IMG/VR virus record: IMGVR_UViG_3300011934_000017
Location: 156,238-220,237 of that record
Length of the DNA: 64,000 nt
From: a virus
Direction: 5' to 3' (one strand)
Positions within the stretch are counted from its first letter, which is position 1. Each line of letters opens with the position of its first letter. Of the stretch, positions 10,649-47,928 are shown piece after piece. The position numbers were made by a program, and so were the translations under genes. The notes below the pieces were generated by a model, which had not been told where the DNA came from, ran no database searches, and saw nothing but the letters and a program-made list of their open reading frames with translations.

Positions 10649-10649
10649 T

Positions 10650-12172: not shown

Positions 12173-12183
12173 GGATTGAATAA

Positions 12184-13026: not shown

Positions 13027-13038
13027 TCGGAGAATGCA

Positions 13039-13701
13039 ATGCTTACTTTCCAACATTTAGATAAACTCACCATAAACGAATTTTTTGAAAGCGACTTGTT
13101 TTTTGAGTTGCACTCTCTGTCTGGTATGAGCATATTTAGCGGTAGTACGGAAACAGTAAAAGAGAAATTGCTAGATTCTGTACACAACCAACAAGAAAAG
13201 GTTTCACACAACCTCGTATGTTCGAATGGAAAACCTGTTGGTTTCTTTTCTTTGAAGACGCACAGTACCTACTTTTACTACGACACCTTTACAGATACAG
13301 TAGAAGACTTAGGTAATGCGGTAGAGTTTTCTAGTTGGTTTGTTTCTAGTAGCTATAAAAATCTAGTTTCTCCTACCGCCGCTATAATGAGAAAAAGCTT
13401 AGAAATGGCAAGTGACATTGGACGCATTGCTGTGTTTGGTGTGCGAGCACAGTATTACGAAGACGGTACTCCAATGTTTCTTTCTGCGAATAGAGATTGT
13501 TGGAGTCACGAACCGCGACCAGACTACAATATATCTAATGGGCCTAAAAACTTGTCTGTGACGCATCCTTCTTTTCATCCTGATTCTTTTGGTATTTTAA
13601 AAGCTGCTCACCTGTTTGGCTTTAATATGTTTGGTTTAGATGCTTACGACGGGAGTCCTAAATATCGCAAGTTTCTTTCTTCAATGAAATCTGTTGAATG
13701 A
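13039..13701 (+). CDS. Hypothetical protein, weakly GNAT-like
   Basis: 220 residues, 12 bases after the PP-loop gene with GGAG upstream of the ATG. SNGKPVGFFSLK followed by a beta-rich stretch, SSWFVSSSYKNLVS, and a helix (PTAAIMRKSLEMASDIG) recalls the order of strands in GCN5-type acyltransferases, but no clear acetyl-CoA loop (Q/RxxGxG/A) is present. It ends with Tyr/Pro/Gly-rich segments. Its position inside the cassette suggests a late tailoring step or a structural partner. I would not call it an acetyltransferase without a structure search. Confidence 0.7.
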   Translation: MLTFQHLDKLTINEFFESDLFFELHSLSGMSIFSGSTETVKEKLLDSVHNQQEKVSHNLVCSNGKPVGFFSLKTHSTYFYYDTFTDTVEDLGNAVEFSSWFVSSSYKNLVSPTAAIMRKSLEMASDIGRIAVFGVRAQYYEDGTPMFLSANRDCWSHEPRPDYNISNGPKNLSVTHPSFHPDSFGILKAAHLFGFNMFGLDAYDGSPKYRKFLSSMKSVE

Positions 13702-14815: not shown

Positions 14816-15529
14816 ATGAACCTAACTAAAATCATGGAAAACAATTCAAGGCTGTTCTCTCACGTTATAATCCCTAGACGAAGCGCTCCTACAAAAATTC
14901 GTCCCATTTTACCTCTCAAGATTAAGTTTCTAACAAAACCTAATTCTAAGCAAATCCTTTATTCTGGTTTGTACTTTTGCATTCCAGATAATCTTCTGTT
15001 TTACGAAATGGACTTACTAGAAAAGGCAATTATAAGCAGGTTGCCTGACATTTCTCAACCTTTGAACATACCGTATAGTCTGGTTACGAAACTAGATCCG
15101 TCATTTTATGGATACATAAATGGATTTCACGTCGAAGACAATAAGGCTTATATAGAATCTGCGAATTGTCTTTTTGTTAATCCTGACTCACCTTTATTAC
15201 CTACGTCGCTCGAAGACCCTGCTTATGGTGTACTGCTTCCCCTTTATGAGGCGTCTGCTTGCTTATCTTATCTGTTAGCTTCCATATCCCTATATAGAGC
15301 TGGTGACTTTGATACTCTACCTACGATGCTAGAGAAGACTTGGAGTAAAGTAGAAAAAGCTTCAGGTGTAAATATGACTAAAGCATCTTTCATCGACGGT
15401 ATGTTTAGAATCGGTCCTGACTTATTTGGTAACTCTATAGAAGATGATTGTGTGGCTCCCGGACTTGCGCATCTTCTAGGTAGCTTTTTGTCTTTAGATA
15501 CTGACGTGTCGAAACATTTGGAGTGGTAA
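14816..15529 (+). CDS. Hypothetical protein
   Basis: 237 residues from the ATG at 14816 (MNLTKIMENNSR), the first good start after the promoter at 14773. It is rich in hydrophobic and aromatic residues (SGLYFCIPDNLLFYEMD, LPLYEASACLSYLLASISLY) but has no convincing membrane helix. The end is acidic. It is the first gene of the operon with the clamp loader and SbcC-like genes and its stop is two bases before the clamp loader ATG. A role in replication or repair is suggested by position only. Confidence 0.7.
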   Translation: MNLTKIMENNSRLFSHVIIPRRSAPTKIRPILPLKIKFLTKPNSKQILYSGLYFCIPDNLLFYEMDLLEKAIISRLPDISQPLNIPYSLVTKLDPSFYGYINGFHVEDNKAYIESANCLFVNPDSPLLPTSLEDPAYGVLLPLYEASACLSYLLASISLYRAGDFDTLPTMLEKTWSKVEKASGVNMTKASFIDGMFRIGPDLFGNSIEDDCVAPGLAHLLGSFLSLDTDVSKHLEW

Positions 15530-15531
15530 TC

Positions 15532-16677
15532 ATGGCTAAGAAAGCAAAAGCAGCACCAATTGAGACAACTACTAGCGGTGCACTGGCTGTAAAATACAGA
15601 CCTGCAAAACTGAAAGACTTGTCTGGTCAACCACATATCACTACTCAGCTAAAAGGCATGTTCAAGTCTCGAAAAGTACCTGGCGCTTTTTTGATTGAAG
15701 GTCAAACAGGCGGCGGTAAGACGACTCTAGCGCGTATCATTCATAGGTACTTGAACTGCGAGAAAGGTACGGCTTGCGGTAAATGTGAGTCATGCCGTAT
15801 TGACCCTAAGAACCATCCTGATCTTGTTGCTATAAACGCAGGTACTGATGGTAAAGTAGACGACATTCGAAAGCTTGTCAAAGGTGCGCGTGTTGCTCCT
15901 TACCACAACAAACGTATTATCCTGATCGACGAGGCACATAAGCTAACAGGTGCTGCGGCAGAAGCTTTGCTGGTACCTTTGGAAGAACCAAGTCGTGATA
16001 CCATCTGGATTTTGTGTACAACGAATCCTGAAAAGATGCTACCTACGATGATCAATCGTTGTGTGCATTTCACAATGAAGCCAGTCGAGCACCAAGATAT
16101 CGTTAGTCGCCTTACTTTCATTGCAGAGAAAGAGAAAGTAGATTTAAGCGGGGAAGACGGTCAAGAAGCTTTGAGCCTGATCGCTGACTTTTCCAACGGC
16201 AGTATGCGTCATGCTGTAGCGCTTCTGGAGTCTGTGCTTTATGCTGTCGCTGGCGGTGCAGATATCAGTAACAAAGAGGTACTGTCGGCGTTTATTCAAA
16301 ACTCCGAAGTTGATTTAGACAAGGCTGCCGTCAGTCTAGTCGCTGCACTAATGAATAATGATCTTAAAGGTGCTATTCGCTTTGTACGTAAAGCAGGTAA
16401 CACACGCGGTCTTGTAAGCAAGTCACGTTGGTTAATTGACTACTGTATAGGCGCTAAGACTAAGACAGCCAAGTTCAAGCCGTACTCCGGTCGATTGTTT
16501 GAGAAGCTGGTCTCCGACAAAGGTATTGACGTTCGATTGGATGCTTTGCTGTTGCTTCAGATGACCATTGTCGATGCTGAAATGAAGATGAATAGCACGT
16601 CCATCGATGAATCCGTTATTCTCCAAACAGCTATCGCCAAATACGCCTTCGATAATGTTGAGGAAGAGGAAGAGTAA
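15532..16677 (+). CDS. Clamp loader subunit, DnaX (gamma/tau)-like
   Basis: 381 residues, AAA+ ATPase. In order: KYRPAKLKDLSGQ (the classic DnaX/RFC start), Walker A GQTGGGKT (57-64), a DnaX-type zinc module (C76, C82, C85, C88), Walker B IILIDEAHK (129-137), and NRC with the arginine finger near residue 176. The C-terminal third is the helical collar. The start at 15532 is chosen because GGAG is eight bases upstream; the GTG at 15523 overlaps that site. It would load the sliding clamp encoded at 48333. No separate small loader subunit was recognised. Its stop overlaps the next start by one base (TAATG). Confidence 0.9.
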   Translation: MAKKAKAAPIETTTSGALAVKYRPAKLKDLSGQPHITTQLKGMFKSRKVPGAFLIEGQTGGGKTTLARIIHRYLNCEKGTACGKCESCRIDPKNHPDLVAINAGTDGKVDDIRKLVKGARVAPYHNKRIILIDEAHKLTGAAAEALLVPLEEPSRDTIWILCTTNPEKMLPTMINRCVHFTMKPVEHQDIVSRLTFIAEKEKVDLSGEDGQEALSLIADFSNGSMRHAVALLESVLYAVAGGADISNKEVLSAFIQNSEVDLDKAAVSLVAALMNNDLKGAIRFVRKAGNTRGLVSKSRWLIDYCIGAKTKTAKFKPYSGRLFEKLVSDKGIDVRLDALLLLQMTIVDAEMKMNSTSIDESVILQTAIAKYAFDNVEEEEE

Positions 16678-28855: not shown

Positions 28856-30484
28856 ATGATAACGCAAATGTATAGAGAGGTTCTTTCTGCTTCTAATCGA
28901 GATCCTCTACAGTATGATTGGTACAAGGTAGTTTCTGACACAAAGACCAAGATTGATCTTGGCACTGTCGTCATGGAGCTATCTAAGGGTGAGAAGTTTG
29001 GCATCAAGAAGACACGCGGCTCATTCTTCATTATTGACGAAGACAACCTCGCTAAGCAGTATAAGGTAGAAGAACGTCACGTCAACCGTATTTTGAAACG
29101 TTCGAATTCTTTCCGAGGTAAAATCGACGGAATTAAGGTGGGCGGAGCTTCGAGTTCTGCTAAAGAGCCTCGTGCTCCGAAGCAACCCAAAGAGCCTGTA
29201 ACACCTAAAGCACCTAGTGCCCCGAAGCGACCTAAAGAGTCTGCAACACCTAAAGCACCTAGAGAGACTTCAGGTATAATACGAAGAAGGCCCAAACAGC
29301 CTAAACAACCTGAATCTTCTGATGGACCTAAGGCACCTAAACAACCTAACGCACCGAAGCAGCCTCGTGCTCCTAAGCAGCCCAAAGAACCTAAGCAGCC
29401 CAAAGAACCTAAGTCGTCTACTATAACACGTAGAGCACCTAAAGAGCCTGTTATCGACGACGAGCTGGATACGGACATTGATGACGAGCTGGACGAAGAC
29501 TGGGAAGAAGAAGACCTCGATCTTGAAGGGGATGAGGACTTAGAGGATGAGGACTTAGAGGATGAGGACTTAGAGGAAACTGTTAACGCAAAGCCTGATA
29601 TCAACGACGATGACGACGCTTTGTTAGCAGCTTTTCCTAAAGCTAGAGGGCGTATAAGAAAGAAAACTCCTTATCAGAAAATGTTAGAAGAGGACGCAGC
29701 AGAAGAACAAGCGGCCCGTGAGGTTAGGAAAGAAGAAGTCAAGCCGTCTCCTGTATATGATGCTCCCGCACCTGTGAAGCGCGATATATCGAAGATTAAA
29801 GTTCCTTCTGTTTCCGAACTTCCACAACCTATTGACGATGCCGATTTTAAAAGGCTCGCAAAGGCCGCGCAAGCCCTTTCTATTGCATTGTCTCGTAAAG
29901 AAAATTCTTTGCCGAAAGAGTCTCAAGAAGTTTTAACTTGGCTCAACGCTTTGACTTCCAATATCTCTCCGCTTGAAGAGGAATTTGCAGTCAAATTCCC
30001 TAAGAGAAGCATGTGGCCTTCCATCGAAGAGTTTAGAAACTTCCTTAACGACTGTCTGCAAAACGCCTTAAATCGCACAGTGTCTTTGGCTGTGGGTAAC
30101 ATTGAAAACGAAGTTGACCTTCTTTTGGGCGAGTATGCTGAGCATAAATTCCAAGAAAGCGCTTGGCGAGCCAACATCACCAAGACAGAGTACCATATCG
30201 AAGATGTGCTAAGCAATCTAGGCTTTGAACAGAAAGACGACTCTGCCGTTCTAACTTTGGATTCGTCCTCTTTTATTCAAGCAGCGTATAACCCAGAAGG
30301 CAAAGGCATCAAATTAGAGGTTCAGAAACACAGCTTGCAGCAGGTAGAGACTCAACCCGATGATGAAGGTCTTGTTAAGAAAACCGAGAAGATTTTACCT
30401 GACGGTCCAGCTAAAAAGCTTCTAATTCCTTTCTCAAAAACTGCTAAAGCCAATATAGAGCGCCTAGTAAACGCTGTTCGGTAA
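28856..30484 (+). CDS. Protein with shared GEKxG domain (copy 2)
   Basis: 542 residues. The front domain (DPLQYDWYKV, LSKGEKFGIKKTRG, FIIDEDNLA, FRGKIDGIKV) matches the 27506 and 42686 products. Residues 100-195 are a long Lys/Pro linker built from KEPKQPK- and APKQP-type units. An acidic block follows (195-250), with three tandem DEDLE units. The C-terminal ~220 residues are helical (ADFKRLAKAAQALSIALS). The charge pattern, basic then acidic, is like an intrinsically disordered tether. Probably a virion protein; function unknown. Confidence 0.8.
   Translation: MITQMYREVLSASNRDPLQYDWYKVVSDTKTKIDLGTVVMELSKGEKFGIKKTRGSFFIIDEDNLAKQYKVEERHVNRILKRSNSFRGKIDGIKVGGASSSAKEPRAPKQPKEPVTPKAPSAPKRPKESATPKAPRETSGIIRRRPKQPKQPESSDGPKAPKQPNAPKQPRAPKQPKEPKQPKEPKSSTITRRAPKEPVIDDELDTDIDDELDEDWEEEDLDLEGDEDLEDEDLEDEDLEETVNAKPDINDDDDALLAAFPKARGRIRKKTPYQKMLEEDAAEEQAAREVRKEEVKPSPVYDAPAPVKRDISKIKVPSVSELPQPIDDADFKRLAKAAQALSIALSRKENSLPKESQEVLTWLNALTSNISPLEEEFAVKFPKRSMWPSIEEFRNFLNDCLQNALNRTVSLAVGNIENEVDLLLGEYAEHKFQESAWRANITKTEYHIEDVLSNLGFEQKDDSAVLTLDSSSFIQAAYNPEGKGIKLEVQKHSLQQVETQPDDEGLVKKTEKILPDGPAKKLLIPFSKTAKANIERLVNAVR
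29531..29575 (+). repeat. Tandem 15-base repeat, three copies
   Basis: GATGAGGACTTAGAG is repeated three times without change inside the acidic block of the 28856 gene. It encodes Asp-Glu-Asp-Leu-Glu units and suggests recent slippage growth. Confidence 0.9.
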
Positions 30485-34129: not shown

Positions 34130-37100
34130 ATGACACTTTCTTTTGAAGACGGACTCAAGCAACTGCATAAAATCTTGCAGGAAAGCAATAGTAGTTCCGA
34201 AGATCAAGATGATCAAAACCCCGATACTTTGCCTGTGAATTATGGACTGGCGTACCCTTTTTCTTCTTTGTCTGCCAGTAAAGATGATTCCGATTCTATT
34301 ATCTCGCAACAGCTAACCTCTGTTCGCCTCGATAAGGATCGAGCCGCAGAGTACAATAAAACCTTTTATCCTAAAGGCTCTGAAGCTTTTCAACCTATTA
34401 TCGAAGAGCTTGTTAAGGTTTCTGCTCAAGTTAACGGCATGTTTTCGCTGTTGCGCTATTGCCTTGCGTCCTCTCGTCGGCTGTCTTTGATGGGCCCTAT
34501 GGAACGCGCTGATGCAATCAACCGCGAAGCCGAACGTATTTTACGCAATGTTTCTGGAGGCGACCGCTCTGAAATCATTGACAACTTCCTTAGCTCAACC
34601 AACTCCGGTAAGAATCACGTAATCAAACCCTCTACTCGCTATGAAGGTGGTTACGATATTCGATTTATTGGTTCTCCTGCTTCTCCAAGTTCTTCTGTAG
34701 AAGCTAGTCTTCCTTCTATCCATGTTCCTTACGGCGAAAACTCCGTAATTGATATTGCACCAGGCGGAAAAAGCAATAGCCCTCATTATCAGCGTGAATA
34801 TTTAGAAGCCTATGCTACCGAGTTTGCTCAGAATGCTGTGGCAGCGGGTGAAGAAATTCTGCAAATGTTGGTAGGCGAGAAAGCGTCTGATTACGGAAGT
34901 GCGGCTCAACGACTGGTTCGCACAGTACCTTTTGACTTTGATTTTCGTTCCGCTAACGAGATTTTCTTCAAGCATACTGGTATTGTTCTTACCGTAGATA
35001 TGATGGAAGATATTGATAAGAGTATCGTTCAGAAATACGGAGAGTTCTTTAGCGCTTGTGTTATTCGGACACCAAAAAGCTCCTTGATCAATCTTGTTTA
35101 CCGTAAGATGGAAAAAGACCGGGCTGAAGCTCAAGAGGGTGCTGAAGCTCCGCCTGTATCTGCTTCATATATTGAAGACTATGTTACAAAAGAAGGCATG
35201 GCGCTTTCTCAAGTAGTTTCTCTGTCTTTTGCTATTACGCTTCCAGCCGACATTACTCGGTACATCACTCAAACAGAAACCAGTGAGCGTGTACCTATCG
35301 CATCGCTGCATAACTGGGCATCTATCTGGACTCGCGTCTTCATTCGTAAGAAAGGCGCGAAAATGTCTGGTGGACGTATTCGTAACCGCGAAATTCCTCG
35401 TTTCGTTCCGCCTCTGTCGAAGACTCAGAATATTACGAATCTACGTGCTCAAAATGGTTTTCACGTAGAGCCTGGTAAGGGCGATGACAACGGAATTTTT
35501 ATTGCACCTGACGGTACGTTGCAGTACGGTCTTCCTACAGAAGCAAAAGCGGACATTAACGAAAACCTAATCAATTACGAGCGTGACCTAGATACATATC
35601 TCGCTTTTTGTTTTGATCATGATATTCCGCCTCAGAGCACTATGGCTTTGCCTAATGAGGTTCAAGTAGGCTCTGCTGATCCAAACGTTAATGAACAATA
35701 CAAGAAGCTCTTTAATAATGTCCGTAAGTATAGTGGTAAGCTGTTGTCCTATGATTGGGACTACAACAATATCATCACAGCACATGTTACGGACCCTACG
35801 AGCATTGTACCTCGCGATCTGGTAGGTGCAGCTAAAGTCGATAGTTTGGCTATTGCGGATTACTTGGGTTACAACTTCGCAGACGAAGGCGAAAGTCCGA
35901 TTCGTAAAGGCTTTGCAGACGCAATGGTCTTGATGACACAGCCAAACTCGGAAGATTCCGACATTGCTCTTTCTCGTGTGTCATCCAGTTCGAATCCTGC
36001 TGCCTTCATGGAGCCTGGAGGTGTATCGCCTTCTCTGTTGGAGTTCTATGCCTTTCAAATGATGAAAGAGCGTGTACCTGACGGTGAAAAGCTGTTTGAA
36101 ATGGCGAAAAGCGAGCTTGGTATCACCGAGCTATCCGAATATGACCAGTATATCTATCCCAATCTGTTTCTTAACGGATATCCCGATCCTGACGGCTCAA
36201 TTAGAAGTTCGCGCGGGACTGTAAACTTTCTGCTGTCGTGCGTAAGCCACACGATGCGCCATTGTAATCGTGGTCCTATTTTACGTCAGATGGTCGCTAA
36301 TGAGAACCCTGGTATCTCCCCAGGTGACTTGGCTGAAGAGGTAGAGAATCATCCTCACTTCTTCAATCCGTCTTCTTCTCCCGCTGCTGACTTTGGGCGT
36401 CTGTACAACTACATCGGTGGTATGATTTTCCGTATCGCTATGGAAAGTCTGACCAAAGTTGCACGAAAAGACCTATTCAGCGTAGAAGAGCCGATTCCTG
36501 TAGGCGGGTACGGCAATGCGCTGTTGCACAAGTCCAACCATAGCCAGGTATCTCGTACTATATTGCCTCTTGCTATCATGTTTTCGAAGTATATTCCGAA
36601 TAAAGATTTATACTTCCGTGAGGCCGAAGAGCTGGTTGAGTCGAACAAAGGTGATCCTTCTGTTGACGAATCGGATATTCAAATAGCAGGTTCTGTAGAC
36701 GGTGCGCAGATGTTCCCGCACCAGGTACGTGCTCACGGTAGCCTACGTAAGCGTCCTGCTTTCTCAATTCTTGACATTGCTCCAGGTGGCGGTAAGACTA
36801 CTCTAGGTGTTACTGACATTGCATCTATGGTCACGGAGTTAAATGAACTCGGTCAAGACAAAATCAAGCCCATCATCTTATGCCCAGACGGTCTCATTAA
36901 GAACTGGGTAGACGATATGAAGATTTTCACAGGCAACAACTGGAACATGCTTCCTGTGAACAGTACGATTTTGTCACGTTGGGGATACGAAAAGCTTGAA
37001 GAGACTATTCGAAATGCTCCGCCTAATACCATAGTAGTTTGTGGCTTCCAGTTCCTTAACAACAAGAAAGAAACTATTGTTGTGGGAACACACTCAGTTA

Positions 37101-40100
37101 ATATCTCCAATAACCTGGAGTTTATGAAACGTTTCGGCTTCGATTATATCTGTATTGATGAATCGCACAAGCTGAAAAAGAAAAGCTCGCAGCGCCACAA
37201 AAACATTAAGCAGTTTACCACAGGTTCACACGTTCGCTTCTTGCGTCTGGCCACAGGTACTTTGATTAGTGACCGTGTCAGCGATATTGTAGGGCAAGCA
37301 AGTCTCTATAATGGACACATTTTCCGTGACGGTGAAGTATCAAGAACAGCCGTCTCTGATGTGTCTCCCAGCGTGAGTGTTAACGGCGATGAAGTCCCGT
37401 TGTGGCAAGTAGATAGCCCTCAACGTGCTCGCCAGAAGCTTGGTCGTTATGCGTCTGTTATCACAATGAAGAAAAAGGAATGGGCATTCATGCTGCCCAG
37501 TCCTATTGAAACCTTCATTGCAGTACCTATGGTACCGGATAACGAAGGTGCTACCGCCGCTGAGCGTGAAGCCGTTGAGCTGGGTGAAATGCACAAGCAG
37601 CTTTATGATGCTGTACTTCAGGAGTCTGTCGAAGAGCTGGAAGAGCTTTTAAAGAAAGCCAAAGGTCGAGGTGCAGGCGAAGGTGATGACGACGAGGAAG
37701 AAGAAGCAGATAGCGATGGTTCGCCTGAAGGTGCTGATGTTGATCTGGACGATGCGGATGATTTAGCGGCACTAGGCGCTACCGCCCTTCATCCTTATCT
37801 GGCACGTATCGAGCGTTTGGTCACTAACCCTATGGCAGACCCGCTTGCTCCTCAAATCTTCGGTGCTGCGGGTGTTGAACACTACCATAGTACCAAAGCG
37901 CTTTACGTTGCTAAGCGAATCGACGACCACTTCAATCCTACGAAGTGGGAGAAAGACAAAATCTACAAGGAATACACACTTGTAGATTTTGAAGGTCGTT
38001 TATTCTTGAGTCGCAAGAAAGACAAGGGTTCTCCTACTCCAACAGTTCTTCCAGAGACTACTCGCGGTGTTACGCCTCTGGACGATACAGATACTTGGAA
38101 AGAAGAGCCGGAAGGTAAGATCGTTATTTTCTGTCGCTATACTAACAGCGTAAACGGTATTTATAACGCTTTGCCTTCTGAGTACAAGAAAATCGCTGTT
38201 AAGTTTACTGGTCAAGAACAAGACAAGTGGGCAAATCTTGATGGTTTCATGAACGATCCTAAAATCAAGATTCTGGTCGCTAACGAAATGGGTATTGCGG
38301 AAGGCCATAACATGCAGTTGGCTTCTCGTATTATTCGTATCGAGAGTCCTTGGGCGCCGGGTGATCTTGACCAAGCATCTTCACGTATCTTCCGTCCTGA
38401 TCCGAAAGCTCAGAAAGACATGGTTAAATCAGGTAAGCCTGGCGAGCTTGCGCGTGAAGCTATCTTCCTTGACTGGATTCTTTGCGATAACACAATGGAG
38501 GTTGCTAAGCAGGCACGTTTGATTTCCAAGATTTTCAACAAGGCACGTTTTGACGAAGCCGAAAACGCGACCTACGATGACGTGTTGAATGAGTACGACC
38601 TTGATGAAATTCGAATGAGTCTGGACACGCTTCGGTCTCGTGCGTCTCTGAGTGAATATACCGATTACGTTGAAGCTTATGCTGCGCTTAACGGTATTCA
38701 GCGTGAAGAGTTCCACGAAATGCGGGCTACCATGGATCACACCATGAAGAGCCTTGAAGTTACTCCGCCTACTCCTGGTTTTGCCAAGATTCAAACTCCT
38801 TTTGTTGCGAATCAAAAGCCCGACGATAGCGAGGGTCTAAATCTTGTTACGCTTCGGAACATGTTGCGCAGCGACGAGTACAGGAAGTTTAAAGATGATC
38901 CTTCTTTATTGAAAGGCATGCCCATTGTAACAGATATGGGTAAAGGACGCATCGCTTCTGTTCGAGTTCGCTACTTAAATCAAACAGTGTTGGATGAAGA
39001 AGGTAATCCTGTTCGTAACAAGCCTACTAGGGCTAATCCTTTAGGTACAATCAAGAAAGAACCTGTTCTTGACTCTCAAGGCCGCAAAGTTATCGACCCT
39101 GACAAGCCTATTAGTAGTATGAAAGTGAAGCTTTCTGGCTCGAATGATGTTATTGATATTAAGGGAACTGGCGATGTGTTTATGCCTACCACTCTTGATT
39201 CGAAAACAGCTAAGAAAGACTTCAAGGTTAACAATCTGAATACTACAGCGACACAGGAGCGTAAAACAGCCCGAGAAGAGGAGCGCATTCGCCAAGAGGA
39301 AGAGGAAGAGCGTAAGCAGAAGGAGAAAGAGGAAGAGAAAGCATTGCTCAGAGAAGAGCGACGTCGGAAGAGGGAAGCACAGCAAGCCAAAGAACGTGCT
39401 GCCGCTGCTGAAGACGGTAAGAAGCGTGAAGAAAACATCAAAGACGGCAAGCCAATCAACACAGGTATTCGCCCGAAGGACAATGTTCCTCCGATTAAGC
39501 GTGGTCGCATTCAAGACGAAGATGGTGACAAGGTAGTTACCGTATCTCCTGCTTACTTCCACGGCTATCTAACGCTCGAAATGGACAGCGACGATACTGA
39601 TCCTAAACTAGCCAAGAAGCTTGGGTTCAAGACTTCAGGACCCTATGCTTACGTTACTGCGGATCGTTACAATCGTTTCGATAAGGTTCTGGATTACCTC
39701 GAAAGTAACTTCTATCTATCGGATGCAAGTGCTCGCCGCTTGGAAGAAGTTCAAGATGCTTTCGATACAGGTCCGAAAGAAATCTATCGTATGGAGCTGC
39801 TGCCAAACACTTCTCTTCCGATGTTCTTCGCTGTTAGCAAGCGCAAGGTCACCAAGCGTAATGAGATTCGTCCATACCCAATCATTATGCCGGATGCTTT
39901 GCATATTGCTGTTGATAAGCTGACAAGTCCTGCCATTGTTAAGCACATCAATAAAGCGATTCCGGGTGCCGTGACCAAATGGAAAGAGCATCCTGGACAC
40001 TACCTGTTCTTTGCAACAACGAAAGCAGAACTTCGCAACAAAATTCGTGAACTGAAAAAGGCAGGACTCACTATAGCAAATGAGGCCGAAGCTAAAGCGG

Positions 40101-40144
40101 AAATCACCAACATCAAATTCCGTGCTGCTAAAGGCAAGAAGTAA
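34130..40144 (+). CDS. Very large SNF2-family helicase-like protein
   Basis: 2004 residues, the largest gene in the window. The motor lies at about 870-1450. It shows Walker A ILDIAPGGGKTTLG (near 884-891), motif II DESHKLKKKSSQRH (near 1009), LRLATGTLIS (motif III), an acidic insert (near 1180-1210) and KIVIFCRYTN (motif IV). LVANEMGIAEGHNMQ and LDQASSRIFRP (motif VI, near 1413) follow. The residues before 870 have no motif I know. After 1500 come a Glu/Lys coiled coil (EEERIRQEEEEERKQK, near 1720) and a C-terminal alpha/beta region. SNF2 motors move along DNA and displace proteins. The size and unit with virion-like genes suggest it could be packaged and injected, as with the P1 defence protein DarB, but this is only an analogy. 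Confidence 0.9.
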   Translation: MTLSFEDGLKQLHKILQESNSSSEDQDDQNPDTLPVNYGLAYPFSSLSASKDDSDSIISQQLTSVRLDKDRAAEYNKTFYPKGSEAFQPIIEELVKVSAQVNGMFSLLRYCLASSRRLSLMGPMERADAINREAERILRNVSGGDRSEIIDNFLSSTNSGKNHVIKPSTRYEGGYDIRFIGSPASPSSSVEASLPSIHVPYGENSVIDIAPGGKSNSPHYQREYLEAYATEFAQNAVAAGEEILQMLVGEKASDYGSAAQRLVRTVPFDFDFRSANEIFFKHTGIVLTVDMMEDIDKSIVQKYGEFFSACVIRTPKSSLINLVYRKMEKDRAEAQEGAEAPPVSASYIEDYVTKEGMALSQVVSLSFAITLPADITRYITQTETSERVPIASLHNWASIWTRVFIRKKGAKMSGGRIRNREIPRFVPPLSKTQNITNLRAQNGFHVEPGKGDDNGIFIAPDGTLQYGLPTEAKADINENLINYERDLDTYLAFCFDHDIPPQSTMALPNEVQVGSADPNVNEQYKKLFNNVRKYSGKLLSYDWDYNNIITAHVTDPTSIVPRDLVGAAKVDSLAIADYLGYNFADEGESPIRKGFADAMVLMTQPNSEDSDIALSRVSSSSNPAAFMEPGGVSPSLLEFYAFQMMKERVPDGEKLFEMAKSELGITELSEYDQYIYPNLFLNGYPDPDGSIRSSRGTVNFLLSCVSHTMRHCNRGPILRQMVANENPGISPGDLAEEVENHPHFFNPSSSPAADFGRLYNYIGGMIFRIAMESLTKVARKDLFSVEEPIPVGGYGNALLHKSNHSQVSRTILPLAIMFSKYIPNKDLYFREAEELVESNKGDPSVDESDIQIAGSVDGAQMFPHQVRAHGSLRKRPAFSILDIAPGGGKTTLGVTDIASMVTELNELGQDKIKPIILCPDGLIKNWVDDMKIFTGNNWNMLPVNSTILSRWGYEKLEETIRNAPPNTIVVCGFQFLNNKKETIVVGTHSVNISNNLEFMKRFGFDYICIDESHKLKKKSSQRHKNIKQFTTGSHVRFLRLATGTLISDRVSDIVGQASLYNGHIFRDGEVSRTAVSDVSPSVSVNGDEVPLWQVDSPQRARQKLGRYASVITMKKKEWAFMLPSPIETFIAVPMVPDNEGATAAEREAVELGEMHKQLYDAVLQESVEELEELLKKAKGRGAGEGDDDEEEEADSDGSPEGADVDLDDADDLAALGATALHPYLARIERLVTNPMADPLAPQIFGAAGVEHYHSTKALYVAKRIDDHFNPTKWEKDKIYKEYTLVDFEGRLFLSRKKDKGSPTPTVLPETTRGVTPLDDTDTWKEEPEGKIVIFCRYTNSVNGIYNALPSEYKKIAVKFTGQEQDKWANLDGFMNDPKIKILVANEMGIAEGHNMQLASRIIRIESPWAPGDLDQASSRIFRPDPKAQKDMVKSGKPGELAREAIFLDWILCDNTMEVAKQARLISKIFNKARFDEAENATYDDVLNEYDLDEIRMSLDTLRSRASLSEYTDYVEAYAALNGIQREEFHEMRATMDHTMKSLEVTPPTPGFAKIQTPFVANQKPDDSEGLNLVTLRNMLRSDEYRKFKDDPSLLKGMPIVTDMGKGRIASVRVRYLNQTVLDEEGNPVRNKPTRANPLGTIKKEPVLDSQGRKVIDPDKPISSMKVKLSGSNDVIDIKGTGDVFMPTTLDSKTAKKDFKVNNLNTTATQERKTAREEERIRQEEEEERKQKEKEEEKALLREERRRKREAQQAKERAAAAEDGKKREENIKDGKPINTGIRPKDNVPPIKRGRIQDEDGDKVVTVSPAYFHGYLTLEMDSDDTDPKLAKKLGFKTSGPYAYVTADRYNRFDKVLDYLESNFYLSDASARRLEEVQDAFDTGPKEIYRMELLPNTSLPMFFAVSKRKVTKRNEIRPYPIIMPDALHIAVDKLTSPAIVKHINKAIPGAVTKWKEHPGHYLFFATTKAELRNKIRELKKAGLTIANEAEAKAEITNIKFRAAKGKK

Positions 40145-40185: not shown

Positions 40186-40791
40186 ATGATTATAGTAGTG
40201 ACAGGACCAGCATTTAGCGGTCGCATGGAGATGGCTGAAAAGCTTCTATTGCATTTACCGGAAGCTGAACCATTTCCCTTAATAACACACTCTAAAAAGC
40301 TTTTTGCTTGGGACAAAGAATCAATGTTGTCCTACTCTACAAAAGCCGATTTTGAAGCTATGTCCGAAAACTCGGAATTCCTTTATGAGTTTGAAAGTGG
40401 TGGTACATCGTTTGGTATTTCCAGAGACTTAGTTAGTGATCCGAAGAAAATCTACATAGTTACTTGCGATCCAGATGTGGCTCTGATGGTTTCTAAGCTA
40501 TTTCAAGAACTGGATGTGGTTTCCCTGTGTGTATACATGCATTGCTCTCTAAGAACCCTGATGTTTCGACGTTCCGGTGAAGTAAGAGCTTCCGCCTCCA
40601 GCGATCTTCACTTTATTCAGGACATATATGGAGATCATTCCTTGAAGTTTGGTCAGCTTTTAGCAGACACCGAGAAAGGTCGTGGATTCAATAAGATCAT
40701 TCCTGTTAACTCTGATCGCCTAGCTTCAAGCTCATATTGGAACGAAGTAGTTAAACCACTTACATCCCGATTAATTTCAGAAGCCGTTTAA
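40186..40791 (+). CDS. Guanylate kinase-like protein with altered P-loop
   Basis: 201 residues, TTAGGAG before the ATG. MIIVVTGPAFSGRMEMAEKLL looks like the GPSGxGK start of guanylate kinases, but the P-loop Lys is Arg here and the next Ser/Thr is Met. The later FLYEFESGGTSFGISRDLV matches the YGTS region of guanylate kinases, and MHCSLRTLMFRRSGE matches the PSxxxLxxRL helix. It is either a nucleotide kinase with unusual chemistry or an inactive guanylate kinase fold used for binding. It follows the SNF2 gene by 41 bases. Confidence 0.65.
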   Translation: MIIVVTGPAFSGRMEMAEKLLLHLPEAEPFPLITHSKKLFAWDKESMLSYSTKADFEAMSENSEFLYEFESGGTSFGISRDLVSDPKKIYIVTCDPDVALMVSKLFQELDVVSLCVYMHCSLRTLMFRRSGEVRASASSDLHFIQDIYGDHSLKFGQLLADTEKGRGFNKIIPVNSDRLASSSYWNEVVKPLTSRLISEAV

Positions 40792-40800
40792 GGAATCAGT

Positions 40801-41238
40801 ATGCAAATCAAAAAGACCCAACTTCAACGACAGCAAGTTATTATGTCGAAGCTCGGTTTCTATAAGAGTGCCTGTGAAGGTATCTGGGGACCCGAAGCCA
40901 TCGCAGCTAAGAGCGCATGGGAGCGTGATCCGTCTTTCATTCCAGGACTGCCTACTAACGGTCTCCCTCTAGGTGATCGAGATCCGCTTCCTCAAGGTGT
41001 TTCGTTTGATAAAGCCACACGCTTGTTTCGTCTCGAAGGTATGACAGACGAGGAGATGGATAAGTACGTAGAAAAAGCTTCTCCTAAGCCTGAGAAAGAG
41101 AATCCACCTCAAGAGACGGTAGATTCTGAAACAGTTACAGAAGCCGAAAATGAACCTACTGTATATTCACCAGAGCAAAAGAACGAGCACACCAACTCCA
41201 ATCAGAGTTTTGGTAAACACAATAAAAAGAAACGATAG
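40801..41238 (+). CDS. Peptidoglycan-binding-like small protein
   Basis: 145 residues. The N-terminal 55 residues (LQRQQVIMSKLGFYKSACEGIWGPEAIAA...) follow the pattern of PG_binding_1 domains: a paired helix, Leu..Gly-Phe/Tyr, then a GxWGP turn. The rest is a flexible Pro/Glu/Asn-rich tail ending KHNKKKR. No enzymatic domain is attached, so it may be a virion part that contacts the cell wall, or a decoy. Conserved turn and length support the assignment moderately. Confidence 0.6.
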   Translation: MQIKKTQLQRQQVIMSKLGFYKSACEGIWGPEAIAAKSAWERDPSFIPGLPTNGLPLGDRDPLPQGVSFDKATRLFRLEGMTDEEMDKYVEKASPKPEKENPPQETVDSETVTEAENEPTVYSPEQKNEHTNSNQSFGKHNKKKR

Positions 41239-41246
41239 GAGGTTGT

Positions 41247-41999
41247 ATGCTTGATTTAAAGCTATCTACCTTATATCTAAAATCTTCTCGATTCCAAGAC
41301 TCCTTTTTGATTGCACATCTGGAGAAGCCCGAAGAATTTGTACCAGGTTCTTATATGTCCGATCTACTTGGCTACTTTGGAATCGGTGCTGGAATCTATC
41401 GACGCGATATAAAGAGTCCTCCAGATTGGGCATATCGTTATCGATTCTCTCAATTTCCCGACGTGCTTAAAAGGCTAAACGAGCTAGAAAGCAGAATAGG
41501 AGTGGAAAAGGCGAAGATTATTGTCTTTTCAGATATTGTTAAATGGTTTCAAGGCCTTCTAGGTTTCTACGCATATCACGGTATTCATTTTGCTATTCCT
41601 GATCTGCGCATGTTCATAGATATGACCGCTTCCTACTTAAACATACCTGTTTCTCCTGATCTACGACTACAGCTTATAGGACCTGACGCTCCTCCAGATA
41701 AACCTGTAGTAGAAAGCGTTATTCTTTTTGAAGTTACGGAAGACAAGGATGTGCTGTTAGGTTTTGGAGCGCCAGCTTTTGAACCGAAGCTTGATTCTAC
41801 TTATGAGTTCTTTGACCTGAGCATAGATAACCATCGGTTTGATTGGGAGCATAGCTCGCAGCTTGGAACACCTTCGAATCTTGTGGGAACTCTGCTGAGT
41901 CTAAAGCACTACAATTTTTCAGCTTCGCCCAAGGAAGAGCAAGAAGAAGAGCTGGATTTCCACATAGAGCATTTAAATAAGATTAGGAGAGCAGTATGA
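41247..41999 (+). CDS. Hypothetical protein
   Basis: 250 residues with a strong AGGAGG site. Aromatic-rich alpha/beta composition (LLGYFGIGAGIYRRD; WFQGLLGFYAYHGIHFAIPDLRMF) and a Glu-rich end. It overlaps the next gene by four bases (ATGA). No known motif; probably a virion protein by context. Confidence 0.7.
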   Translation: MLDLKLSTLYLKSSRFQDSFLIAHLEKPEEFVPGSYMSDLLGYFGIGAGIYRRDIKSPPDWAYRYRFSQFPDVLKRLNELESRIGVEKAKIIVFSDIVKWFQGLLGFYAYHGIHFAIPDLRMFIDMTASYLNIPVSPDLRLQLIGPDAPPDKPVVESVILFEVTEDKDVLLGFGAPAFEPKLDSTYEFFDLSIDNHRFDWEHSSQLGTPSNLVGTLLSLKHYNFSASPKEEQEEELDFHIEHLNKIRRAV

Positions 42000-42358
42000 C
42001 ACCTATTGTTCATGGTGCGATGGAATTACCGCAAGGCGTAGGTACAAAAGCAAAGCTTCAGGATTTAAAGGGTCCTATACGTGCTGTTATTCATCCTGAA
42101 GATGATTCGTATCACGTATTTGCCTTGCCTTGGACATTCGCTTGGAATACAATCAGTATTGCACCGGAAGGTACAGCTACTATCTACTTCACCATCAGTT
42201 CACCCGAGTCTATTCGAAGCGATACTGCTATCTGGCATGAATGGGGTCAAGGCACTATTTCTGAACCTTCTTGGCACGAGTGGGAAAATCCTTGGTTAGC
42301 CATGCGTGTTGACTGCGACGCTACCACAATCGTTGAAATTGCAGGCAAATACGGATAA
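41996..42358 (+). CDS. Hypothetical small beta protein
   Basis: 120 residues, ATGA-coupled to the gene before. It reads as a single beta-sandwich (AVIHPEDDSYHVFALPWTF; GTATIYFTISSPES) with several Trp. It stops three bases before the thioredoxin-fold gene. Possibly a capsid or tail decoration domain; not recognised. Confidence 0.65.
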   Translation: MTPIVHGAMELPQGVGTKAKLQDLKGPIRAVIHPEDDSYHVFALPWTFAWNTISIAPEGTATIYFTISSPESIRSDTAIWHEWGQGTISEPSWHEWENPWLAMRVDCDATTIVEIAGKYG

Positions 42359-42361
42359 TTT

Positions 42362-42682
42362 ATGTCAAACATCATCGAAGTAACAGACGACACTTTTTCA
42401 GGTGCTCTAATGTCTAACGCTAAAGCTGCTGTACTGTTCCATGCACCTTGGAGTGGACACTCTCAGCTAATGCATCCTATCATGGAGAGCGTGGCAGAAG
42501 ACTCCACTGTTACCGTTTGTTTTGCTCAAGCAGAATTGAACACGTCGTTCATAGCTAAATTTGGTATTCGCACAGTTCCAACCTTAGCGCTGTTTGAAAA
42601 CGGAAAACTGCAAGGCGTTCGTATCGGGCGACAAACCCGAGAAGACGTTTTATCCTTTTTAGAAAGCTCTTCCCAGGAATAA
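42362..42682 (+). CDS. Thioredoxin-fold protein lacking both active-site Cys
   Basis: 106 residues, exactly thioredoxin length. AAVLFHAPWSGHSQLMHPIM aligns with the VDFWAxWCGPC active-site region, but both Cys are Ser (Ser31, Ser34) and Pro is His. The cis-Pro loop RTVPTLALFENGK (Pro73) and GRQTREDVLSFL helix are intact, so the fold should be kept while redox activity is lost. T7 uses host thioredoxin, without needing its redox function, as a clamp for its family A polymerase. This phage has a family A polymerase 2.2 kb downstream. That link is my inference. It may equally be a virion or chaperone-like protein of the surrounding operon. Confidence 0.85.
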   Translation: MSNIIEVTDDTFSGALMSNAKAAVLFHAPWSGHSQLMHPIMESVAEDSTVTVCFAQAELNTSFIAKFGIRTVPTLALFENGKLQGVRIGRQTREDVLSFLESSSQE

Positions 42683-42685
42683 ATC

Positions 42686-44617
42686 ATGACTATAAAATTT
42701 TCTCCGCAAACGTCTTTGTCAGCAGGACGCAAAAGCGATCCCACCAAATTCAAATGGTTCGAGGTCTCTAAAGGTAAAATTCTTTTAGATAATCACCATA
42801 AAGAGTTCGAAGTCGAGCTTAAAAAAGGTGAGAAATTCGGTATCAAAAAAGGTCGGGGAAAATTCATTCTTGTCGATGAAGACGACCTTTCTCTGACCTT
42901 CTCTCTGACTTTGGATGACGTTTCTGCTATTCTGTCGAAGGCTAAAAGCTTTTCTGGTATGATAGATGGTAAGAAAGTGATGCCTGGTAGTCCTAAAGAC
43001 TTTGCAGGCGCGAAGTCTGCACCGTCTGCTTCAAGACGTGTGCCTCCGGAAATGTCCCTGACATACTACAGAGCCTTAGAAAATGTTTTTGGGGTTCTAT
43101 GGCGACCTTTTGCAGGCTACATAAATAAAGGTGAAGGTAAGGGTAAGCCTGCAAAAGGAATGCTTAACAGAATGCTTAAAAGCGCCTACAAGAGTGCTCA
43201 GGAGATTAAGTCTTACGGAGGCAAACTTCCTAAATACCAACATTCTTACCTGGAAAAGTATTACGACTTCTACAATAACACGTTAGCAGAAGTTCTCAAA
43301 AAGCCTGTTCCCGACATTTTGGAGATTAGCGCGCCAGCACGAAGTACCTATAAATTCACTGTTAAAGAATACCGTGAAGATATCAAGTATTTCGCAGACA
43401 TTTTTCTGCTGGATGAAGAGAAATCAACAAAACAAACCCAGAAAATTTTAGCGCAGAAAAAGAACGATGCCGCTCATGGTGTAAAAATGCTTAAATTCCT
43501 GGGAGAGAAACTGCCTTCCACTAAAAAGCATCAGCGTGTTATCGAGGAAGTCCTTGAACCTGCTACGAAAAGTCGTGCTTCGAAAACGCCATCTAATACA
43601 ACTAAGCCACATCCCGGTTTAGAAGTAAAGCAAGGTGCTACACCCAAGCAAGATCGTTCAGGTGAAGCAGCCAAGCGCATCACAGATAAGAACGTCGTTA
43701 CTGCTTTGAAGCGTATGGGTGTAGAGCTTGAGAAGGATCCTTCCGATAAGGCATATCGCGGTGAGGTGACTCCGAAGCTTACTCGTGAGATTAAAAGCGC
43801 TTTTGAAAATGCAGGTTGGGATACCAGCTATCGTAAAGGCGGTTCTAACACTAGAAAGCGAGGGTCGTTTACCGTTCTTTATATGGAGCTGCCTGGCGGA
43901 AAGCGTCATGTTACCATAGCGACTACAGGACGTTCTAAAGGTCGCGTAACAGTAATGCCTCCTACTACCAAAGCTGCGCCTAAAGCTGCTGCGCCTAAAG
44001 CTGCTGCGCCTAAAGCTGCTCCTGCTAAAAAATCGGCTTCTAGTGTTACAAACTACAATGACTATGTAGCTCTTCTGGAACGTAATAGTGACGAACTGGA
44101 TCAAAACGGTATTGATCCTGCGGAAGTAGCACCAGACTTTTTGCGTAATATTAAAGGCTTGCGTTCCTTTATGAATAAAAAGTTTGGTTTAAAGGGCGAA
44201 GATGCTGCTAGAGCCTTAGCCGACGATATCTATATGGGCAGACCTGCTAATCTGCGCCGGGACGAAGGTGTTTCCGACGCGATAGATAATTACGAAGAGG
44301 AAATAGAAGCCACATTCATTCAGGACGTCGCCCGTAACCTGAGACACATGAAAAAGCACAGTAAAGCGATAACCGAAATAAAGCAGAAAGAGATAATAGA
44401 AGGGATGGCGTCGTTCACCTGTAAGTTCGAAGGAACGCCCTTCCAGATAGATGTTGTCTTCCAAGACGTTGTGAAAGGTAAGATATCTGCTCGTGTGTCT
44501 ATCTCCAGTTCCACAATGCGCGGTAGTGTGAGCAAGCGGGCGTTAGGCGCAAAAGCAGAACCTGAAGCTTTGGTTAAGCGCATTGTGAACTTCTTTGAGA
44601 CAGGTGGCAAGTGGTAG
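42686..44617 (+). CDS. Protein with shared GEKxG domain (copy 3)
   Basis: 643 residues. Its front domain (DPTKFKWFEV, LKKGEKFGIKKGRG, FILVDEDDLSLTFSLTLDD, FSGMIDGKKV) is close to copies 1 and 2. After it come a helical domain (120-290), a Pro/Lys linker, a domain at 325-420 (KRMGVELEKDPSDKAYRG), a linker of three PKAAA units, and a C-terminal helical/beta domain. The gene starts three bases after the thioredoxin-fold gene and ends just before a promoter element. No enzyme motif is visible. Confidence 0.8.
   Translation: MTIKFSPQTSLSAGRKSDPTKFKWFEVSKGKILLDNHHKEFEVELKKGEKFGIKKGRGKFILVDEDDLSLTFSLTLDDVSAILSKAKSFSGMIDGKKVMPGSPKDFAGAKSAPSASRRVPPEMSLTYYRALENVFGVLWRPFAGYINKGEGKGKPAKGMLNRMLKSAYKSAQEIKSYGGKLPKYQHSYLEKYYDFYNNTLAEVLKKPVPDILEISAPARSTYKFTVKEYREDIKYFADIFLLDEEKSTKQTQKILAQKKNDAAHGVKMLKFLGEKLPSTKKHQRVIEEVLEPATKSRASKTPSNTTKPHPGLEVKQGATPKQDRSGEAAKRITDKNVVTALKRMGVELEKDPSDKAYRGEVTPKLTREIKSAFENAGWDTSYRKGGSNTRKRGSFTVLYMELPGGKRHVTIATTGRSKGRVTVMPPTTKAAPKAAAPKAAAPKAAPAKKSASSVTNYNDYVALLERNSDELDQNGIDPAEVAPDFLRNIKGLRSFMNKKFGLKGEDAARALADDIYMGRPANLRRDEGVSDAIDNYEEEIEATFIQDVARNLRHMKKHSKAITEIKQKEIIEGMASFTCKFEGTPFQIDVVFQDVVKGKISARVSISSSTMRGSVSKRALGAKAEPEALVKRIVNFFETGGKW
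43976..44020 (+). repeat. Tandem 15-base repeat, three copies
   Basis: GCGCCTAAAGCTGCT occurs three times in a row in the 42686 gene, encoding Ala-Pro-Lys-Ala-Ala. It is the same linker type (Pro/Lys) as in the other two proteins with the shared front domain. Confidence 0.9.
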
Positions 44618-44925: not shown

Positions 44926-47900
44926 ATGGGTAAACCGAAACACGTTAGTCTTCCTTACAAGTATTCACCTTCTTATAGAGACGTACAAAATGACTTCGGA
45001 TATGTTCAATTAGCCAAACACCAAACCAAGAAGACCGATAAGAAGATTCTAATCGTATTAGACTATGTGCCTACAGAAGACCTGGCTTCAGGTAGATTGC
45101 TTTCTGGTGCTACAGGTTCCTTACTGAAAAGAATCGATCAAGTCACTTCCCAGTACTATGGAAGCAAGTATAAGATCAATGATCATAATTGGCTCGCTGT
45201 TACGTTCCATACGTTTAAGACAATAGGTCAGTCGGATGCTTTTCGTGAAGGTGCAAAGAAAGAGTTTAAAAATAGGCTTCAGCACATCATTTTAAAGTAC
45301 AAGCCGGATGTTGTACTTACGTTTGGTCCTGATCCTTACAAAGCTTTGAATGCAAGCAAGATAAGCAAATACAACGGAAAGATGCAGCATTTGTTTGGTG
45401 TGCCTATTCCTACAAAGATTAAAAGTAAAAACAAAGAACACAAGTTTAAGCACGTTCCTTCACTGAGTCTGAACACTCTGGTAAACGATCAAGGCAAAGG
45501 CAGCGAGATGGCTTTGACCGGCTACGTTGCACGTAATCTGCTAACGGCTGTAGAAGGCGATCTTCGATATAGAATACCAAAGCGTCCTGAGTATAGCACC
45601 GTTCTTGTTGATACCGTAGAAAAATTCGACAAGATGCTAAAACTCATGGCTCGATCCAAGTATGTTGCTATTGATACAGAGACCGAGAATCTAAATCGTC
45701 GCGCCAACAAAATGCTTACGCTCCAGTTTGCAGCCAGTACCAAGCGCGCCTTTGTATTACCGTTTTTGCATAAAGACAGTCCATTTACAGCAAAAGAGCT
45801 TCAGTACATACGAAAAAAGCTCCGCAAGTATTTTGAGTCAAAGAACAACAACACGTACCAAATATATGCCAACGCCACTTTCGATCTAACCGTACTGCGT
45901 AACGCCTTAGACATTCGTTTCTTCAAAGCAAGTATCTGGGACCTGTTCGCTGCCGAATTTGCCTTAGATGAAAACATGAAGTTTCTTAGCGGTGTCACAG
46001 GTCACTATTACTACAGCCTGTTGAACCTGAGTATGCAATACGGTTGTACGGCATACTATGAGGCAGAGTTTGGTAAAGAGAATCGTAAGACCATTTCGAC
46101 GGCAGACCTGAACGATGCCTTGCTTGAATACTGTTCGCTAGACGTTGTGATTCCTCTCCATATTATGAGAGAACAGATGCAACGTGCCGTTGACATAGGC
46201 TATGATAAGTTTGAGTCTGTGGTTGCCGAACAAATAAGTGATATGCTCCACACGTTCTCCACACTTGAGTACAACGGTGCATACACTGACATTGACTACC
46301 TGTTCTACTTGATGACAAAAGACAGTCCGATCCATGGTGAGATTTTGAAGATCATGGATCGCCTGAAAGAGACGAAAGGCGTTAAGAAAGCCAATCAGTT
46401 ATTGAGCAAAAGCAAAGGCGTACCTACTGTCGGTCTTTGGGGTAAGTCCGATGTTGATATGTTTAATATTAGCAAGCAAGACCATCAGCGTCTTTTGTTC
46501 TTTGATGTGTTGAAACTGAAACCTATTCAAGTAGGTAAAGCAGGTCATGGTAAGATAGATAAGACGTTCCAAGCTAAGTATAGCGACGTAGAAGAGGTAA
46601 AGCTATACACAGAACTTCAGAAAGCCAAGAAGCTTTTCAACGCCTATGTTAAGTCCTTCATTAAGAACTGGGGTGTGGATGAAGATATGCGTTTCGATAG
46701 ACGCATTCGTCCTCACTTTAAGTTTCTTGACGTTGTAACAGGTCGTACTTCAGCACAAAAACCTTCGCTTCACCAGATACCTTCACGTTCCGAGCTTGGT
46801 AAGCACATTAAGCGCCTCTTCATAACAGAAGAAGGCCGCATAATGATCAAGGTCGATTACTCTGCTCACGAGGTTCGCTGTTGGAGTCTGTTCACAGGCG
46901 ATAAAGATGTAGCAGGTCTTTTCGATAATGGTCGCCAGTTGCGTAGTGACTTCAAGCTCGCTCCTGATGCTGATCTTCTCAAAAGAGTAGAACTTGAAGG
47001 TGACGTTCACAAGATAAATGCCAGCTACTTCTTCGGTGTTCCCATCGATCAAGTAGACAAGAAAACACGTAACGCCGTAAAGACAGTAATATTCGGTTTG
47101 ATTTATCAGCAAGGTATCAAAGGTCTTGCAAAATCTACAGGTCAGACCATAGAAGCAATGGAAAAACTGACTAAAGAGTTCAAGAAGAAATATCCTGTAG
47201 GTGTTTCTTGGTTCGACGACATTAAGCAGTTTGCTCGTGAGCACCTGTATGTTGAATCGCCACTTGGTCGTCGTCGTCATGTTTGGGGCCTGTTGATTCC
47301 TGATGATGCTAAAAACGCCGACTCCTGTATTGCACGTAATGAACGTCAAAGCGTTAACAGTCCCATTCAAGGCATGGGTTCTGACTTCTTGATTAATGGA
47401 AGCCGCCAGATTGAACGTCTGAAGTATGATCACTTCGAAGCATCAGGTCACTATCCTGATTTCTACCAAGCAAACTCAGTGCATGACTCCATCATCTTCA
47501 GTTGCGCTAAGGAAGATTTATGGCTTGCTATTCGCATCATTGAAGAGGGACTCACCTCTGCCGTTAGCGATGTATCCAAGAAACGTCATGATATGGACTT
47601 TGTTGTGCCTCTTGAGATTGATTTTGAAATTGGTAGTAACGAGCGAGACGTTGAAGGTTGGGACTATAGCATCGAAAGCCTTGAGCGTATCATGCGAGGT
47701 ACGTTAAAGACACAGAAAGAATGGGGTCACAATGTCGATGTTGAAAAAGACTTACATAGCTCGGTATTCGGACATTATGAAGATATGCCAGAGTGGGCAC
47801 AAAAGCAAGCTTGGAACTACAAGCTCAAGCTCAGAGGCATGAAGAAAGATCCTAGAAGTAAGAAAGAAAAGCGCCTTGCTGTGCCTGAGCATTCTGATAG

Positions 47901-47928
47901 CTTTTCTTCCGTTAAACGTGTCGCTTAG
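44926..47928 (+). CDS. Family A DNA polymerase with UDG-like N-terminal domain
   Basis: 1000 residues. Residues about 40-190 look like a uracil-DNA glycosylase fold: ILIVLDYVPTED, GRLLSGATGSLL (cf. the GxPFVGxAGxLL block of family 4/5 enzymes), DVVLTFGPDPYKAL, and HVPSLSLN in the place of the HPS motif. Next is a 3'-5' exonuclease domain (AIDTETENL near 250; LLEYCSLDVVIPL). The polymerase domain has motif A DYSAHEVRCW (near 644), motif B RNAVKTVIFGLIYQQG (near 715) and motif C SVHDSII (near 851), where the usual HDE is HDS. The catalytic aspartates are present. A UDG-like domain in front of a PolA polymerase is known from SPO1-type phages. It is the main replicative polymerase of this phage. 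Confidence 0.95.
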   Translation: MGKPKHVSLPYKYSPSYRDVQNDFGYVQLAKHQTKKTDKKILIVLDYVPTEDLASGRLLSGATGSLLKRIDQVTSQYYGSKYKINDHNWLAVTFHTFKTIGQSDAFREGAKKEFKNRLQHIILKYKPDVVLTFGPDPYKALNASKISKYNGKMQHLFGVPIPTKIKSKNKEHKFKHVPSLSLNTLVNDQGKGSEMALTGYVARNLLTAVEGDLRYRIPKRPEYSTVLVDTVEKFDKMLKLMARSKYVAIDTETENLNRRANKMLTLQFAASTKRAFVLPFLHKDSPFTAKELQYIRKKLRKYFESKNNNTYQIYANATFDLTVLRNALDIRFFKASIWDLFAAEFALDENMKFLSGVTGHYYYSLLNLSMQYGCTAYYEAEFGKENRKTISTADLNDALLEYCSLDVVIPLHIMREQMQRAVDIGYDKFESVVAEQISDMLHTFSTLEYNGAYTDIDYLFYLMTKDSPIHGEILKIMDRLKETKGVKKANQLLSKSKGVPTVGLWGKSDVDMFNISKQDHQRLLFFDVLKLKPIQVGKAGHGKIDKTFQAKYSDVEEVKLYTELQKAKKLFNAYVKSFIKNWGVDEDMRFDRRIRPHFKFLDVVTGRTSAQKPSLHQIPSRSELGKHIKRLFITEEGRIMIKVDYSAHEVRCWSLFTGDKDVAGLFDNGRQLRSDFKLAPDADLLKRVELEGDVHKINASYFFGVPIDQVDKKTRNAVKTVIFGLIYQQGIKGLAKSTGQTIEAMEKLTKEFKKKYPVGVSWFDDIKQFAREHLYVESPLGRRRHVWGLLIPDDAKNADSCIARNERQSVNSPIQGMGSDFLINGSRQIERLKYDHFEASGHYPDFYQANSVHDSIIFSCAKEDLWLAIRIIEEGLTSAVSDVSKKRHDMDFVVPLEIDFEIGSNERDVEGWDYSIESLERIMRGTLKTQKEWGHNVDVEKDLHSSVFGHYEDMPEWAQKQAWNYKLKLRGMKKDPRSKKEKRLAVPEHSDSFSSVKRVA

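Follow-up and report, generated by a model that had tools for sequence, protein, structure and literature searches.

A thioredoxin-fold gene in the replication block of a jumbo phage

The window, that is, the whole 64,000-nucleotide stretch of DNA analyzed here, forms the final 64 kb of a 220-kb virus record. It encodes a redox-dead thioredoxin-fold protein (Trx) close to the genes of a family A polymerase and a sliding clamp. Two other viral records, L008 and L028, carry the gene at the same locus. The features considered below are as follows.

15523..16677, + strand: clamp loader AAA+ ATPase (PF13177, E 3.2e-34)
34130..40144, + strand: SF2 helicase of 2004 aa, which starts the syntenic block (by synteny)
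40186..40791, + strand: P-loop kinase-like protein with a weak guanylate kinase resemblance, seen only in the clade that bears trx
40801..41238, + strand: 145-aa protein encoded in the conserved interval between helicase and polymerase, found in most relatives
41247..41999, + strand: 250-aa protein of no family, with a clear relative in L008 and weak ones in L028 and Lu11
41996..42358, + strand: 120-aa protein of no family, otherwise in L008 only
42362..42682, + strand: redox-dead thioredoxin-fold protein, 106 aa (PF00085, E 4.2e-14; AlphaFold2 and Foldseek; same-locus homologues in L008 and L028)
42449..42463, + strand: W30-S31-G32-H33-S34 replacing WCxxC (alignment to E. coli Trx; WSGHS also in L008)
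42578..42580, + strand: Pro73, equivalent of cis-Pro76 (alignment; invariant in the window, L008, and L028)
42686..44617, + strand: 643-aa protein with a KMPT-N-like domain (PF20294 just below threshold; above threshold in L008)
44926..47928, + strand: family A DNA polymerase (58% identity to the PaBG enzyme)
46333..46461, + strand: polymerase residues 470-512 in the thumb, with a short insertion where T7 has its thioredoxin-binding domain, common to the whole phage group
48333..49523, + strand: sliding clamp (DNA polymerase processivity factor; phrog_947, E 4.8e-21)

The open reading frame at 42362-42682 starts with ATG. It is separated by 3 bases from the stop codon of the preceding gene, and the start codon of the next gene lies 3 bases past its end; the gene therefore belongs to a tightly packed operon. 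The product belongs to the Pfam thioredoxin family (PF00085; 52.8 bits against a cut-off of 23.5, residues 4-101), and its sequence matches in the PDB are many thioredoxins and PDI domains. It scores below the cut-offs of the NCBIfam TrxA (TIGR01068) equivalogs (52.1 of 138 and 47.9 of 96.8 bits), and it has WSGHS at the place of the CxxC dithiol of a functional thioredoxin. The AlphaFold2 model, built from three homologues, has a mean pLDDT of 81.7 and a pTM of 0.76; the closest solved structures found by Foldseek are E. coli thioredoxins (TM ~0.85, ~30% identity).

In the alignment with E. coli Trx, W30-S31-G32-H33-S34 lies opposite W31-C32-G33-P34-C35, P73 opposite cis-Pro76, and G89 opposite G92. 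The initial annotation had read WSGHS in place of WCGPC with the cis-Pro loop kept, and this is confirmed by the alignment, the Pfam match, and the model. Its claim that the protein is incapable of dithiol/disulfide exchange is likewise supported by the absence of both active-site cysteines; the sole cysteine, C53, sits in a strand distant from the active site. Judged by its residues, WSGHS is best described as a PDI-type CGHC motif in which both cysteines are replaced by serine, and it is less like CGPC. The same change, WCGHC to WSGHS, has served as a deliberate experimental replacement silencing a PDI domain (PMC5375154).

The polymerase, clamp, clamp loader, and synteny place the window phage in the PaBG/Lu11-like group of jumbo phages, PaBG being a Pseudomonas phage. 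The group shares a conserved block (helicase - small genes - polymerase - clamp - helicase - tail sheath), and in the trx carriers extra genes separate the helicase from the polymerase. All three carriers have the P-loop kinase-like gene and trx, whereas the 120-aa gene and the KMPT-N-like gene are found in the window and L008 only. The last of these and trx are in reversed order in the two records: the L008 relative of the 643-aa protein has 357 aa, and its gene comes before trx, not after it. The window holds three KMPT-N-like paralogues (27506-28840, 28856-30484, and 42686-44617) related at their KMPT-N-like N-terminal part; the first two lie directly after the head-tail connector gene, and the third adjoins trx. 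The 40801-41238 protein has a peptidoglycan-binding-like look (LGFY..GIWGPE) with no Pfam match, and its PaBG counterpart is annotated as lysozyme. A subtilase-family protease gene is also present (6015-7505; PF00082, E 5.7e-27).

Same-locus relatives, distribution, and selection

Single-sequence searches of viral contigs with the window Trx and with the window polymerase gave no matches. A family alignment of the polymerase led to 52 viral loci, and the three-member Trx alignment recovered L008 only among viral contigs and nothing in bacterial genomes. The closest relative found, L008, has a polymerase 77% identical and a Trx 49% identical to those of the window, with WSGHS retained; in L028, the polymerase is 65% identical, the Trx is 29% identical, and the motif reads T-SGH-G. 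In the window and both relatives, trx lies one or two genes 5' of the polymerase gene. A same-locus relative with intact cysteines, which the initial annotation had named as counter-evidence, was looked for and not found, as L008 and L028 both lack them. The known redox-dead clade comprises three sequences.

Among group members, a Pfam thioredoxin is absent from PaBG, HRDY3, Lu11, NCTB, and AD1 and from 26 of 28 further contigs, several of which are fragments in which absence weighs less; among the other searched records of the group, the count is 0/31. On the polymerase tree, the three carriers group together in one clade (support 100/99), and a single acquisition is therefore enough for the pattern.

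Between the window and L008, the shared four-fold degenerate sites of trx agree at 8 of 28, which is about chance, and residues are identical at 51 of 104 positions, among them SGHS and 15 residues in a row around the cis-Pro. Because silent sites are saturated while these residues are kept, the protein has been under purifying selection over a long time. Drift between near-identical copies is rejected on the same saturation, as is recent decay, the L008 protein having kept WSGHS at only 49% identity, and a sequencing error or artefact as the source of the double serine is rejected because the independent contig L008 also encodes WSGHS. The L028 Trx has 90 aa: its Trp is also gone, and it stops at about the expected start of the last helix, with a terminator-like hairpin after it. 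In the L028 lineage, Trx may be decaying or dispensable.

The polymerase and the T7 precedent

T7 polymerase uses thioredoxin independently of its redox capacity (Huber et al. 1986, as cited in PMC5984650 and PMC3997047). The initial annotation drew on this precedent, which is established in those sources, and on a nearby family A polymerase, and it noted a sliding clamp as a reservation; both genes are present. The T7-type polymerase clamp role that it held possible is not borne out: the polymerase is Pol I-like and without the T7 binding domain, and the phage, as has been described for PaBG (PMC7412058), encodes both a clamp and a clamp loader. In T7 gp5, thioredoxin sits on a 71-residue loop that is missing from other Pol I-type enzymes (PMC3997047). 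Nothing in the window phage genome matches T7 gp5 at E<=1e-3, although profile alignment still shows a common family. The structures most similar to the polymerase model are Klenow, Bst, and pol theta, and T7 gp5 is not among the best 50 matches.

The thumb of the window polymerase does not contain the 71-76-residue thioredoxin-binding domain. It has instead a short, partly helical insertion (residues ~470-512) of about the same length in all aligned group members, with or without trx; the same insertion is also found in Motura and BcepSaruman, whose thioredoxins have an intact CGPC. No clade-specific polymerase insertion was found in the trx carriers, except an intein-like one in L028. This 141-aa insertion (polymerase gene 10001-13384) follows YSAHEVR, starts with CLS, and ends with VHN. 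Longer match spans are seen in the polymerases of L042, L044, L045, L049, L050, and L051, which may likewise be interrupted.

On the side of the thioredoxin, we take R73, G74, K90, G92, and A93 to lie near the T7 interface, an assumption as to their importance that draws only partly on PMC5984650. At these positions, R70, R87, and G89 of the window protein keep charge or identity, whereas the equivalents of G74 and A93, next to the groove, are T and R.

Damaged CxxC motifs were also found in five thioredoxins of other phages.

L082:8992-9327: Brevundimonas phage Bajun thioredoxin, WSGPA
L083:8995-9315: DSS3P8 thioredoxin, WAGPC
L069:295-612: MD18 thioredoxin, WAGPC
L098:604-939: RcXuper thioredoxin, WAGPC
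L097:601-918: Erythrobacter phage EliS-L02 thioredoxin, FCGPS

The Bajun protein is annotated as 'exonuclease' (UTC29921.1) and aligns as a thioredoxin fold. In all five phages, the polymerase is T7-like, and its thioredoxin-binding domain measures 74-87 residues. Intact thioredoxins occur in RD-1410W1-01, DFL12phi1, inbricus, phiKT1024, SRILMA, SP-15, FLC9, Motura, and BcepSaruman, where no T7-like polymerase was detected; in ECO319P1 and Syn5, whose polymerase loops are shorter (53 and 34 residues); and in BRock, which has a weak partial T7-like polymerase match only. The motif is damaged in 5/5 phages that have the full domain and in 3/15 that lack it (Fisher p 0.004), these 3 making up the window clade; the pattern was noticed after looking and among comparators picked by similarity to the window or Bajun protein. 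Relatedness among MD18, DSS3P8, and RcXuper brings the independent cases down to about three, and roughly collapsing related phages gives p 0.014. Intact motifs also occur in three uncultured huge phages outside this count. A further WAGPC contig of 98 kb (L106), with no T7-like polymerase detected, is uninformative because it is a fragment, and Roseophage SIO1 yielded no thioredoxin in its first 25 kb. The association between damaged CxxC and full binding domain is a lead, not a result. It suggests that the damaged proteins could be phage thioredoxins specialized as polymerase subunits. Two earlier proposals fit the pattern, namely, that some protein is bound by the polymerase loop of phiCbK-like phages (PMC3556154) and that in DSS3P8 the thioredoxin assists the T7-like polymerase of the phage (PMC4961962). 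By the motifs and polymerases compared here, the window clade is the exception, with a damaged thioredoxin and no T7-like polymerase.

A T7-like processivity subunit that binds the polymerase thumb and tethers the polymerase to DNA would agree with the fixed place of trx upstream of the polymerase gene in all three phages, with an insertion lying where T7 gp5 has its thioredoxin-binding domain, and with the 5/5 pattern above. We nevertheless regard it as unlikely, since T7 gp5 is unmatched in the genome, the polymerase model is Pol I-like, the insertion is shared with trx-less relatives and with two phages that have intact-cysteine thioredoxins, no polymerase insertion is confined to the clade, the phage encodes a clamp and a clamp loader, and the G74 and A93 equivalents are changed. 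More speculatively, and with rather low probability, the redox-dead Trx might serve a non-T7 family A polymerase as an accessory subunit, working beside the sliding clamp and through the short ancestral thumb insertion; if true, the thioredoxin fold would have been recruited to replication a second time, independently.

A binding protein without redox chemistry

We consider that the window Trx is probably a non-catalytic, phage-made thioredoxin kept for stoichiometric binding through its retained groove. The replacement of cysteine by serine would hold it permanently in a reduced-like shape, and the predicted binding site would consist of W30, the SGHS loop, cis-Pro73, G89, and the conserved IAKFGIRTVPTLALF segment. 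This groove would hold a partner protein stoichiometrically, so that the role of Trx would be that of a structural subunit or a chaperone rather than an oxidoreductase. As candidate partners, we would rank a phage replication or DNA-metabolism protein first, the polymerase included, a host thioredoxin client or thioredoxin-binding protein second, and a virion or neighboring phage protein third. Counting against this reading are the absence of trx from most relatives, the loss of the Trp and the last helix in L028, and a clade of only three sequences. The likelihoods given here overlap, the T7-like, host-directed, and virion readings being versions of the general binding statement, and they do not sum to one.

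Competition for host thioredoxin-binding proteins (clients or thioredoxin reductase) without electron transfer would suit a protein whose groove is kept and whose chemistry is gone, encoded among accessory genes confined to one clade; yet no sequence feature indicates a host target and the position of trx is fixed in the replication block, and such a decoy seems quite improbable. It is similarly doubtful that Trx is a virion component or virion-assembly chaperone: the adjoining KMPT-N-like protein has two paralogues encoded next to the head-tail connector gene, but L028 has trx without a KMPT-N-like neighbor, and related isolates such as PaBG have no trx at all. That Trx is a decaying, functionless remnant of an acquired thioredoxin is also improbable, given an open frame and SGHS retained despite saturated silent sites, even though the L028 protein is shorter and more divergent and Trx changes faster than the polymerase between the window and L008 (49% versus 77% identity). 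The window phage genome and L008 encode a ribonucleotide reductase, but Trx as its electron donor is rejected, because thioredoxin-type electron donation is excluded by chemistry in a protein with no dithiol. Trx is the sole Pfam thioredoxin in each of the three carrier records, and none of them has a glutaredoxin over the cut-off. The L008 ribonucleotide reductase (G001:C1:213046-214431) is one open frame with two separate stretches that match its profile.

Phage thioredoxin genes are usually taken as redox helpers, for example, as electron donors for ribonucleotide reductase. A conserved phage thioredoxin incapable of redox chemistry suggests binding alone as the reason why at least some of these genes are retained, and the window clade together with the damaged thioredoxins beside T7-like polymerases provides a sequence signature for finding phage thioredoxins that are possibly structural subunits. 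Redox-inactive thioredoxin folds in cells and the redox-free use of thioredoxin by T7 are already known. What seems new is a conserved phage-encoded thioredoxin at a replication locus with both cysteines gone; in the open-access literature, we found no report of it or of phage thioredoxins with WSGHS, WAGPC, or WSGPA.

HyaE, DIM1, phosducin, and ERp29 are other redox-inactive thioredoxin-fold proteins of cells. The PDI b domains, which bind proteins without a CxxC motif (PMC5375154), have the same kind of fold. These cellular proteins are not phage encoded, and specific homology to the window Trx beyond the fold was not found. The PaBG/Lu11 ('Lupandier') jumbo phages share the syntenic helicase-polymerase-clamp-helicase-tail block and polymerases of 47-58% identity with the window phage, but they have no thioredoxin gene, whereas the window clade has one. 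E. coli TrxA, the partner of T7 polymerase, has the same fold as the window protein; it differs in keeping CGPC as a host redox enzyme, and its T7 partner has a 71-76-residue binding loop that the window polymerase lacks. Bajun, DSS3P8, MD18, RcXuper, and EliS-L02 have T7-like polymerases with the 74-87-residue domain, and their thioredoxins mostly keep G74 and A93, neither of which holds for the window clade. Like the window protein, their thioredoxins are phage encoded and have lost the motif wholly (Bajun) or partly.
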